From Bacillus rhizoplanae (lineage in GTDB: Bacteria; Bacillota; Bacilli; Bacillales; Bacillaceae_G), in the NCBI RefSeq assembly GCF_917563915.1, contig NZ_CAKJTI010000005.1, positions 62,001 through 126,000 of the forward strand: 64,000 bases of DNA, in the 5' to 3' direction. Under the pieces are notes generated by a model. The model ran no database searches and was not told the origin of the DNA. It saw only the letters and a list, made by a program, of their open reading frames with translations. Positions 3,932-49,145 of this stretch are shown here, one piece after another. The position numbers and the translations under genes were made by a program. Within the stretch, counting starts at the first letter, position 1. Each line of letters starts with the position of its first letter.

Positions 3932-5059
3932 ATGAATACATCACAAAAAATGAAGCCGATTACTCCTTCTTATGATCCATGGGAAGCGTATATGGACCTT
4001 GAAGAGTATGGCAAATTATTATTAACAAACGTTGAGTTTACAACTACAACGTTATGCAATATGCGCTGTGAACATTGTGCTGTTGGTTATACATTACAGC
4101 CAAAAGATCCGAATCCACTTCCGCTTGATTTGTTATTACAACGATTAGATGAAGTTCCTCATCTACGTTCTTTAAGTATTACAGGCGGCGAACCAATGCT
4201 TTCAAAAAAATCCGTTGATAACTATGTAACACCGCTCTTAAAATATGCTCACGAACGAGGCGTTCGTACACAGATTAACTCTAACCTAACTATAGATTTA
4301 GCTCGTTATGAACAAATTATTCCTTACTTAGATGTTCTTCATATTTCCCATAACTGGGGAACTATTGATGATTTTGTTGAGGGCGGATTTGCCATGATGG
4401 AACGCAAACCATCATATGAACAACGTGCCAAACTATTTGAACGTATGATTTCAAATGGTAAAGCATTATCAGAAGCGGGTGTTCTTGTTTCTGCTGAAAC
4501 AATGCTAAATAAACGTACCCTTCCACATATTGAACACATTCACCGTCAAATTGTTGAAGAGATGGGCTGCAAACGTCATGAAGTACATCCGATGTATCCA
4601 AGTGATTTTGCTAGCAATCTTGAAATTTTAACGAAAGATGAAATTCGCAGTGCAATTTCACATCTTCTTGATATTCGTGATGAAAATGTATGGATGTTAT
4701 TTGGAACATTGCCATTCTATGCATGTAGCAATGACGAACGCGATTTAGAAGTATTCAAAAAGCTCCATACAAGTAAAAACGTCACAGTGCGCAATGATCC
4801 AGACGGTCGCTCTCGCTTAAATGTAAATATTTTTGACGGTAATATTATCGTTACAGATTTCGGTGACATTCCATTGCTTGGAAACGTCCAAACGAACACA
4901 TTGCAAGAAGCTTATGACAAGTGGAGCTCTTCACAAACAGCAAAAGAATTAAGCTGTCATTGTCCATCTGTAAAATGCCTTGGACCAAATATTCTTGTGA
5001 AAAATAGTTATTATTCAACAGAAAACTTCTTAACAAAACAAGCAAATCTCACTCTATAA
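3932..5059 (+). CDS. yfkAB: Radical SAM/CxCxxxxC protein YfkAB
   Basis: This 375-residue radical SAM enzyme has the [4Fe-4S]-binding CxxxCxxC motif as CNMRCEHC (residues ~42-49), a GGEP SAM-binding motif (SITGGEPML, ~residue 89), and a Cys-rich C-terminus CHCPSVKC that gives the family its CxCxxxxC name. The substrate is unknown, and no cognate precursor peptide was found next to it. The start is ATG with AAAGGAG ten bases upstream. It is transcribed alone and ends at a strong terminator. A weak Fur-box-like sequence lies ~270 bp upstream (see rejected items). Confidence 0.88.
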   Translation: MNTSQKMKPITPSYDPWEAYMDLEEYGKLLLTNVEFTTTTLCNMRCEHCAVGYTLQPKDPNPLPLDLLLQRLDEVPHLRSLSITGGEPMLSKKSVDNYVTPLLKYAHERGVRTQINSNLTIDLARYEQIIPYLDVLHISHNWGTIDDFVEGGFAMMERKPSYEQRAKLFERMISNGKALSEAGVLVSAETMLNKRTLPHIEHIHRQIVEEMGCKRHEVHPMYPSDFASNLEILTKDEIRSAISHLLDIRDENVWMLFGTLPFYACSNDERDLEVFKKLHTSKNVTVRNDPDGRSRLNVNIFDGNIIVTDFGDIPLLGNVQTNTLQEAYDKWSSSQTAKELSCHCPSVKCLGPNILVKNSYYSTENFLTKQANLTL

Positions 5060-30918: not shown

Positions 30919-31130
30919 AAAAAGCTCGTGTCCCTATAATAGGGACCGAGCTTTTGTCGGCGTTACCACCCTGATTCATATACAATATGTATATGCTCTC
31001 TTGTTTGATAACGGGAATATCCCGCTGCCTATGCAGAACTCAAAGGTAGGTTCCATATTGTCTTTTAAGAATCTCTCAGCCACCGGATTCTCTCTCTGCA
31101 AAAAGATTGAACATGTACTAATCCTTTTTC
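30919..31130 (-). promoter_or_regulatory. Proline T-box riboswitch leader of proS
   Basis: On the minus strand the T-box sequence AGGGTGGTAACGCCG (about 30958-30973) is followed by a terminator (AAGCTCGGTCCC/GGGACACGAGCTT plus T7, 30919-30955). Upstream, Stem I contains the GGTGGCTGAGAG segment and a specifier loop GAA-CCT-ACC, in which CCT encodes proline. Uncharged tRNA-Pro should favour the antiterminator and raise proS. Confidence 0.9.
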
Positions 31131-31245
31131 ATCGTCATAACAATATAAATTTGTTGACTATCATAATACACACTTCATTGTAAAGCAATATAAAATTTTC
31201 TGATTCTTGTATATTCTTTTCATTTTATTTTGTTTTATACTTGTA

Positions 31246-40464: not shown

Positions 40465-40510
40465 TATTCAAGTTATCATAGATTAACAATCTGCTACGAT
40501 GCTTGATAAA

Positions 40511-40595
40511 ACTCCCTACGCTGGCATTATCCAGGTCAGGTTAAGGGTCGATGTATTGTTACATCCTCTCAGCCACACGAGCTCCCCTGTTCCAA
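40511..40595 (-). promoter_or_regulatory. TPP riboswitch (THI element) of the thiXYZ operon
   Basis: On the minus strand the conserved segments appear in order: GGGGAGCT, GGCTGAGAGGATG, ACCCTTAACCTGACCTGG and TAATGCCAGCGTAGGGA. The aptamer is followed by the terminator at 40432-40464, so thiamine pyrophosphate should shut off transcription. Confidence 0.95.
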
Positions 40596-40729
40596 TTCGT
40601 TTTCATTGTAGCACGGATTATTTTTGTGAACAAACAAAATTAAATTTTTTCTCCTAATGATACTGTCCTCAAATTAATCTTCATATATTCTATTGTACTC
40701 ACAAATTGATATGGAAAGGTGGAATTTGC

Positions 40730-41200: not shown

Positions 41201-41238
41201 GAAAAGTCACTTCAGAAAATCTGAGTTGACTTTTCATT
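41201..41238. terminator. Hairpin between convergent genes
   Basis: GAAAAGTCA ... TGACTTTTC with inner CTTCAGA/TCTGAG pairing. It probably terminates both the oxidase-like gene and the nucleoside hydrolase gene. Confidence 0.7.
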
Positions 41239-41274
41239 CACATAATCCGCATTATCTGAAGTTAATAAAGTATG

Positions 41275-42225: not shown

Positions 42226-42402
42226 ATATCTTCCTCCAAAATTTATAAAATCCTATTTTCACTAAGGATGTAGTGAGTAGGATAGGCTTGTACGTATATA
42301 TTTTATGTATTCCTAAAAAGTAAATTCTATTCATATGTAGTTATCATAAAAACAATTATTGGTATAAAAATGTGACTTACATAGCCAATCATTATCGTAG
42401 TA

Positions 42403-42446
42403 GACAAAAAAGCTCACTTCTTATCTTTTTTCAAATAAGAAGCTAG
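42403..42446 (-). terminator. Terminator of the c-di-GMP riboswitch
   Basis: On the minus strand AGCTTCTTAT pairs with ATAAGAAGTGAGCT, followed by T6. The 5' arm overlaps the 3' strand of the aptamer P1 helix (CTTCT), which implies ligand-dependent competition. Confidence 0.82.
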
Positions 42447-42513
42447 CTTAGTCTATTTCGACCTTAGCCCCTATAGTTTTGCGACCTCATGTTTCCATAA
42501 GTTTGCCTTTCTC
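42436..42513 (-). promoter_or_regulatory. c-di-GMP-I (GEMM) riboswitch upstream of nucleoside hydrolase
   Basis: On the minus strand: GAGAAAGGCAAAC, then CTTATG-GAAA-CATGAG (a stem with GAAA tetraloop), GTCGCAAAACTATAGGGGC, CTAAGG and GACTAAGCTAGC. These are the conserved elements of class I c-di-GMP aptamers in the expected order, including the tetraloop and the CAAAxCTAxAGGG receptor strand. The next gene is the nucleoside hydrolase, ~210 nt downstream. The geometry suggests an ON switch, but that is inference. Confidence 0.88.
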
Positions 42514-42525
42514 GATGAACGAGTT

Positions 42526-42810
42526 GAACGATATAGGAGTTTTATGAGAATTACACAATTCTCTGTCCACAGATTACAACATCAAAATCAAATCGTCTAT
42601 TTATTCGCACATATAAATATAAATTTCGTAATGATTCTTTTGTAAAATAATTGTAACAAAATAGAGCGAATCATGTTTTTGATATGCTATATAATAAAAA
42701 TGGCTATTTTCAGAGATTTATTTTATTATTCATTATTTAATTTTTAAATCATTAAACAAATTAAATTATTTGATAATAACGATTGATTATTATCTCGGAG
42801 GTACTATACT
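42526..42810. other. Intergenic promoter region between the riboswitch and the Dcu gene
   Basis: This part of the 585-bp gap holds the riboswitch promoter region (possible TTGTGT and TATATC 17 bp apart on the minus strand) and the AT-rich dcu upstream region. No ORF was recognised. Confidence 0.5.
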
Positions 42811-45444: not shown

Positions 45445-45580
45445 GTTGTCGCCTCCGAAGCAGTATATTCATACACTTTAGTTTCAAACGGCACAATTTG
45501 TTTTATACAAAAAAAAGAATATTGCTTTAAAATAGAGTTTGATCCAAAACACCTCACAAACCCGTATTTTACGGTAAATG

Positions 45581-45626
45581 AGAAGAATCCATTTTGAAAA
45601 AAAGATTGATTAAAATGGATTCTTCT
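45581..45626. repeat. Perfect 15-bp inverted repeat (hairpin)
   Basis: AGAAGAATCCATTTT and AAAATGGATTCTTCT face each other across 16 bases, upstream of ilvA. There is no T-run on either strand, so it is not a typical terminator. Confidence 0.75.
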
Positions 45627-45652
45627 TTAGCATATTTAAGTTTCGGTTTTAT

Positions 45653-45709
45653 AAAAAAGTTTGATCATTTTTCACCTTAGATCTTCCACAATAGCGCCCG
45701 ATTGCTGAA
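45653..45709 (-). repeat. Dispersed hairpin element, copy A
   Basis: On the minus strand a quasi-palindrome CAGCAATCGGGCGCTATTGTG is followed within 20 bp by TGATCAAACTTTTTT. The same two parts occur at 47107-47185 in the plus orientation. The 15-bp TGATCAAACTTTTTT is identical in the two copies and faces outward. Confidence 0.6.
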
Positions 45710-45778
45710 AATCATCTCTAGTTAAATTAGTATTTAATTGAGCCTCTTGGGGAAGCCCCGTTAGTCCAACCAGATTGT

Positions 45779-48836: not shown

Positions 48837-48850
48837 TAATGTGCTTTTAC

Positions 48851-48938
48851 ACTCTCCCTACGCTGGCATTATCCAACAGGTTCAAATGGTCAACGACAGA
48901 TTAGCCGTACTCTCAGTTTGCATCCGCAAACTCCCATG
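48851..48938 (-). promoter_or_regulatory. TPP riboswitch of thiM-thiE
   Basis: On the minus strand: GGGAGTTTGC, AACTGAGAGTACGGC, GACCATTTGAACCTGTTGG and ATAATGCCAGCGTAGGGAG. This is the full THI-box aptamer in order, followed by a terminator. Confidence 0.95.
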
Positions 48939-49145
48939 TGTTTTATTATTCATCTAATTCAGAGTCTACCCTTATTCTATCAAAATCACAAGTTACATTT
49001 TTTTATGAAAGTTCTTCTCCTCTTAACTCATCAAAGATGTAAAGTATTTCATTACTAACAATAGATTCGAATCTTCCGAATAACTGAATCCAAAAAGGAT
49101 GTATGCTATATTTAACTTACGGAAATTCGAAAGGATGTTTTAAAT

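Follow-up and report, generated by a model that had tools for sequence, protein, structure and literature searches.

In the Bacillus cereus group, c-di-GMP-I riboswitches have been described, as far as the available parts of the sources show, before mcpE, cap/cbpA, and cspABCDE (PMC11218506, PMC4933901, PMC7423583, PMC4759541). The Bc3-5 elements of Bacillus thuringiensis are ON switches in front of cspABCDE, in which C245 and the P1 strand, together with a portion of P3, are built into the terminator (PMC4759541). Bc1, present in 98.7% of 155 genomes of the group and with 267 nt between RNA start and AUG, is intact and binds its ligand, but is described, in the part of the paper available to us, as having no effect on in vitro transcription or on expression in cells (PMC11218506). 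A riboswitch of another class has been placed in front of the kind of gene considered here: a 2'-deoxyguanosine variant of the guanine riboswitch precedes purine nucleoside hydrolases in Bacillus and is predicted, according to the accessible text, to act as an ON switch (PMC9295807). No report of c-di-GMP control of a nucleoside hydrolase was met in the literature searched, which lies mostly outside subscription journals, and only one paper in that literature, on another aptamer, brings together the terms “c-di-GMP riboswitch” and “nucleoside hydrolase” (PMC9295807).

The window, by which we mean the whole stretch of 64,000 nucleotides of Bacillus rhizoplanae DNA that was analyzed, has a c-di-GMP-I aptamer and a terminator upstream of a nucleoside hydrolase gene (Table 1). 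As in Bc3-5, the c-di-GMP-I aptamer is followed here by a terminator whose stem draws on the C92 equivalent, the presumed P1 strand, and some of P3, in the layout of an ON switch; Bc3-5 stand three in tandem and have the csp operon as target, with no hydrolase. With Bc1, which lies before mcpE, it shares the c-di-GMP-I aptamer, the terminator, and a long leader; Bc1 differs in having two terminators, a chemoreceptor target, and expression that does not respond to c-di-GMP. Bc2, a c-di-GMP-I riboswitch of the same bacterial group located before cap/cbpA, has a collagen-binding surface protein as target, unlike the window, in the portions of the reports at hand (PMC4933901, PMC7423583). The 2'-deoxyguanosine riboswitch and the window element are both terminator riboswitches predicted to turn on a nucleoside hydrolase, but differ in aptamer class and ligand; by this analogy, the 2'-deoxyguanosine riboswitch before purine nucleoside hydrolase genes is the nearest functional precedent. 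We favor, with a probability of roughly 0.6, the reading that a mobile hydrolase gene stands behind an ON-type c-di-GMP-I aptamer and terminator, with a control that is acquired and lineage-specific.

Table 1. Coordinates of the features at the hydrolase locus and of the other Rfam matches in the window
Feature	Position	Strand	Basis
c-di-GMP-I riboswitch aptamer	42431..42517	-	RF01051, 58.0 bits, gathering cut-off 35, E 9.8e-9
Intrinsic terminator hairpin and U-run	42406..42449 (hairpin 42449-42410)	-	predicted fold, -17.9 kcal/mol
Degraded dif-like site, left edge of hydrolase unit, directly behind terminator	42375..42404	-	alignment of 42408-42338 with L009, L086, L005, L100
Hydrolase leader common to 40 phage-type loci, with GAATACATAAAATATAT block and ribosome-binding site	42226..42337	-	similarity edges at 42333-42337
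Nucleoside hydrolase, 316 aa	41275..42225	-	PF01156, 217 bits (cut-off 34.2); phrog_8702, 509 bits
dif-like site behind hydrolase, same orientation as gene	41235..41262	-	17/22 in the dif arms
T-box and two TPP riboswitches	30938-31141, 40496-40598, 48838-48947	-	Rfam, over cut-offs

A first-pass annotation, made from the sequence alone, had assigned the element to the c-di-GMP-I class and named a covariance-model search as the check. The assignment was borne out, since the RF01051 match lies well over the cut-off and covers the complete model (positions 1-87; cmscan with Rfam 15 on the whole window), its E value being computed for the window, both strands, and 4227 Rfam families. The conserved GEMM motifs that had been pointed out on the minus strand are all in place, namely GGCAAAC at 42507-42501, a GAAA-capped stem (CUUAUG-GAAA-CAUGAG), CGCAAAACTATAGGG at 42483-42469, and CTAAGG at 42467-42462. 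The contact nucleotides G11, A38, and C81 of Bc1 are given, in the part of the source at our disposal, as equivalent to G20, A47, and C92 of Vc2 (PMC11218506). In the window, the spacing of 27 nt from the G to the A contact agrees with the placement of G42507 and A42480. The three equivalents, which we take to be G42507, A42480, and C42442, partly by the usual Vc2 numbering, are the canonical G, A, and C. From these features we infer that the aptamer would bind c-di-GMP. The element itself is widespread, RF01051 being carried by at least 351 of 397 sampled Bacillales genomes.

Over minus-strand positions 42440-42719, the promoter scan gave no sigma-A-like site of at least 9/12, and none of the sites listed ahead of the aptamer comes closer than 42720. 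By eye, TTGTAA-18-TGTAAT at 42579-42550 is a weak promoter candidate. A palindrome, GAGAATT-GTGT-AATTCTC (42563-42546), was also seen by eye over this candidate and is a possible operator.

The terminator hairpin consists of 16 pairs with one mismatch, followed by a U-run. It was recognized by its fold; a simple terminator scan did not return it, probably because that scan requires an uninterrupted stem with a T-run no more than 2 nt away. The 5' arm of the hairpin includes some of the P3 strand, the C92 equivalent (42442), and the bases immediately 3' of C92. The strand 42449-42437 is thus common to aptamer and terminator, which makes the two folds mutually exclusive. The sharing of CTTCT between the 5' arm and the aptamer, on which the proposal of an ON switch had been based, is indeed found (CUUCU in both). 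Two partners are possible for the strand 3' of C92, GAGAA on the 5' side or AGGGG of P3, and the terminator conflicts with both; a comparison of P1 pairing across Bacillales loci, in which 36 of 60 were kept and the row of the window was left out, leaves both partners viable. The terminator together with the P2 hairpin folds at -26.2 kcal/mol, which is below the hand-written ligand-free aptamer folds (-14.1 and -12.0 kcal/mol) and the best fold without the 3' arm of the terminator (-19.7 kcal/mol), thus the default state is predicted to be OFF. Because the terminator takes the 3' side of the aptamer, ligand binding should block termination. The overlap and the fold energies together support the layout of an ON switch.

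According to this model, the nascent RNA would fold into the 42449-42410 terminator when ligand is absent, and transcription would stop. Binding of c-di-GMP at the junction formed by G42507, A42480, and C42442 would hold the strand 42449-42437 in the aptamer; the terminator would then fail, and the polymerase would continue into the hydrolase gene. Ligand-driven switching with readthrough into the hydrolase is what the modeled folds predict, and c-di-GMP probably raises hydrolase transcription in this way, perhaps beside a promoter that the gene itself may retain in its leader. The case of Bc1 counsels caution, as it shows that an aptamer can be intact and bind its ligand and still have no effect on expression.

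The gene downstream was correctly named as a nucleoside hydrolase in the first-pass annotation. Its start lies ~180 nt beyond the terminator, and the same strand has no other credible ORF between the two, the short ORFs present there lacking a convincing start. On the chromosome, the locus is situated between a dcu-like transporter gene and the thiamine genes. The closest solved structures are inosine-uridine nucleoside hydrolases (best E 3.5e-36). The N-terminal motif of the protein reads FTDLGIDD. Relative to DxDxxxDD, presumably the active-site motif of nucleoside hydrolases, a Phe replaces the first Asp in 20 of the 20 rows compared; the three remaining Asp are conserved, and so are AEAN and HD. 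Loss of the catalytic base was considered and rejected, since it is the first Asp of the motif that is gone, and the second Asp, which we take to be the catalytic one rather than the first, is retained. We presume that the hydrolase is an active enzyme.

We then asked how widely the riboswitch and the hydrolase occur together. Hydrolase homologs were found at eight genome loci, with 59-88% identity, and none of the eight has RF01051 over the cut-off within 5 kb on either side. Homologs of 89-96% identity occur at 42 loci in viral contigs; in 40 of these, the DNA that resembles the window starts at 42333-42337, L089 and L091 being loci that begin at or inside the hydrolase gene, and at 0 of the 42 does the similarity reach the aptamer. 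RF01051 over the cut-off was likewise found in none of 46 phage and plasmid records (the 42 viral contigs and four plasmids), six of which have sub-threshold matches of 9.4 to 16.6 bits, with similarly weak matches in three of 14 control genomes. The same holds for 26 Bacillales hydrolase loci with ~1.5 kb on each side (0/26), three of which (L131, L133, and L134) repeat genome loci already counted (L001, L006, and L008); the Rfam scans covered loci other than L013, L015, L016, L017, and L156. From the side of the riboswitch, a hydrolase stands beside RF01051 at none of the 60 loci examined, which are a subset of all matches and include five shorter than 3 kb. The 19 family genomes compared are distant ones, in which the ilvA-like neighbor gene reaches a DNA identity of 73% at best, and their five close hydrolases lie on contigs other than those with RF01051 matches. 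Within the set of loci examined, this window is thus the only place where the two occur together.

These counts bear on the suggestion that a second messenger controls nucleoside breakdown. The riboswitch class is known and the hydrolase target is new, and the link remains plausible but local. It is weaker than had been put forward, since none of the related hydrolase loci examined shows the pairing, the hydrolase is carried elsewhere by phages and plasmids together with its own upstream stretch, and the gap of ~180 nt offers space for a second promoter. That the other loci examined lack the pairing also speaks against any general route by which c-di-GMP would govern nucleoside breakdown. Should the switch prove functional, the c-di-GMP targets of a Gram-positive bacterium would come to include an enzyme that degrades nucleosides, and the locus would offer a natural example of a second-messenger riboswitch that has captured a mobile gene.

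Several observations concern the mobility of the hydrolase. The protein falls in a phage family (phrog_8702). At one viral-contig locus, L054, an integrase and a phage-type transcriptional activator precede the hydrolase gene, and ORFs alike in length and beginning precede it at L053, L058, L071, and L084. Two plasmid copies lie near germination genes. All 42 viral-contig loci (L053-L094) have the hydrolase on phage-type DNA.

The stretch directly behind the terminator, 42408-42338, aligns with the DNA that precedes the hydrolase in L009, L086, and the Ectobacillus locus L005, with 2, 0, and 6 of 1000 shuffles, respectively, reaching the alignment score; it also aligns with L100, a plasmid stretch without hydrolase (10/1000 shuffles). 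As the alignment starts at 42408, the inherited upstream DNA of the hydrolase begins where the riboswitch ends. The terminator with the bases behind it (42449-42389) recurs at 3001-3057 of L100 and 1452-1505 of L012 (86 and 89% identity), which are plasmids of B. arachidis and B. paramobilis, both without an RF01051 match. The B. arachidis copy has 26 identical nt in the terminator hairpin and lies beside a hydrolase-type upstream stretch; the B. paramobilis copy is poorer. Neither an exact 23-nt pattern from the terminator nor an exact 21-nt pattern from the aptamer occurs in the viral_contigs set, no counterpart of the riboswitch DNA turned up in the phage collection, and among plasmids the aptamer core gave short matches only. 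Aptamer, terminator, and hydrolase thus seem, from these alignments, to have partly separate histories. We infer the direction and order of their joining, with the hydrolase as the presumed newcomer at the locus: a phage- and plasmid-associated hydrolase would have come to lie behind the aptamer and terminator in one lineage, and control by c-di-GMP would therefore be an acquired connection.

The edges of the hydrolase unit bear candidate dif-like sites. At the place aligned with the left site of the window, L009, L086, and L100 score 19, 18, and 19 of 22 arm positions, all such scores being taken against what we assume to be the dif arm consensus. The window contains three dif-like sites of 17, and ten shuffles of it gave 11 sites of at least 17, thus the window sites are not significant alone; a second one of these, at 42366-42339, also ends at the edge of phage-type similarity and is an alternative candidate for the left site. 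The hydrolase lies between dif-like sites of 19 and 18 of 22 in L009, a plasmid labeled Pseudomonas fluorescens pZL221, and of 18 and 17 of 22 in L086, with a 7-nt spacer upstream and a 6-nt spacer downstream, both in the gene direction; 100 shuffles of L009 gave 16 sites of at least 17 in total. L009 and L086 are the only two of 58 hydrolase loci scanned, some of which are the same place twice, with both flanks at 17/22 or better, and L089 has one such flank. It is conceivable, though we regard it as a long shot, that the hydrolase is one of the Bacillus single-gene cassettes held between two kinds of dif-like site (7-nt spacer upstream, 6-nt downstream), the aptamer and terminator before the cassette site forming a riboswitch-gated landing site. 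Were this true, any cassette arriving there would become c-di-GMP-inducible, much as an integron supplies a promoter.

The leader of ~110 nt contains the promoter-like GAATACATAAAATATAT block, which has small changes in the Ectobacillus and plasmid copies and is missing from more distant ones. This block could be the promoter of the hydrolase, and such a promoter, if real, would make c-di-GMP control only partial. In a stronger version, most hydrolase transcription would start at a promoter within the leader (42337-42226), the riboswitch and terminator being leftovers whose former target is gone and at most shielding the hydrolase from upstream transcription. Copies that lack the riboswitch, whether phage-type, plasmid, or Ectobacillus, retain the block, and in phage-type loci a hairpin with a T-run, seen by eye, stands ahead of it, thus those copies need a start of their own. 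However, the block could be assigned to no sigma factor and does not occur in the Fictibacillus and Gottfriedia copies compared, and a promoter of this kind is compatible with readthrough from the riboswitch. We therefore judge a leftover riboswitch to be rather unlikely, though with a real chance of being right.

The preferred reading of a mobile gene that came under an existing switch also has to be set against an old functional pair of the species group, in which c-di-GMP would raise nucleoside salvage or remove nucleosides during settling or sporulation. Bacillus does have a riboswitch for another ligand before nucleoside hydrolases, as stated in the accessible part of the report (PMC9295807), and the distance of the comparison genomes leaves room for such a pair. 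Against it, the riboswitch occurs at none of the hydrolase loci examined, which span 59-96% identity, and the hydrolase at none of the 60 riboswitch loci; a conserved pair of long standing may exist within the species, but an old functional pair of the species group appears very improbable. The aptamer might instead sense a ligand better suited to the enzyme, such as c-AMP-GMP or a guanine nucleoside, given that c-AMP-GMP-sensing variants of c-di-GMP riboswitches are known and that the 2'-deoxyguanosine variant turns on, by prediction, purine nucleoside hydrolases, both points from the portion of one source available to us (PMC9295807). The RF01051 match is complete and the three contact positions are occupied by their canonical nucleotides (G, A, and C), which makes this hardly credible, as does the lack of any purine riboswitch match before the hydrolase or elsewhere in the window, RF01051 being the sole Rfam match between 40.6 and 48.8 kb. 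Sensors of c-AMP-GMP have the first contact position changed to A.

Further dif-like flanks were observed around single genes on Bacillus plasmids (L157 25451-30668, L158 9312-10567, L086 4787-6129, and L100 3044-3655), with a 7-nt spacer upstream and a 6-nt spacer downstream, all in the gene direction. L157 has seven dif-like sites of at least 17 in 49 kb, on one strand, and ten shuffles of it gave 24. The record of L009 and L158 (NZ_CP100661.1), labeled Pseudomonas fluorescens, has both a gene for spore germination and a hydrolase of Bacillus-like type, and its label may be mistaken. In L086, positions ~4600-4650, which precede the hydrolase, resemble what we take to be the end of a Tn3-family transposon. 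In the window as a whole, RF01051 is one of four Rfam matches. The intergenic region 45522-45713 is a dispersed repeat found at no fewer than nine places in genome G001 and at further ones in other genomes.
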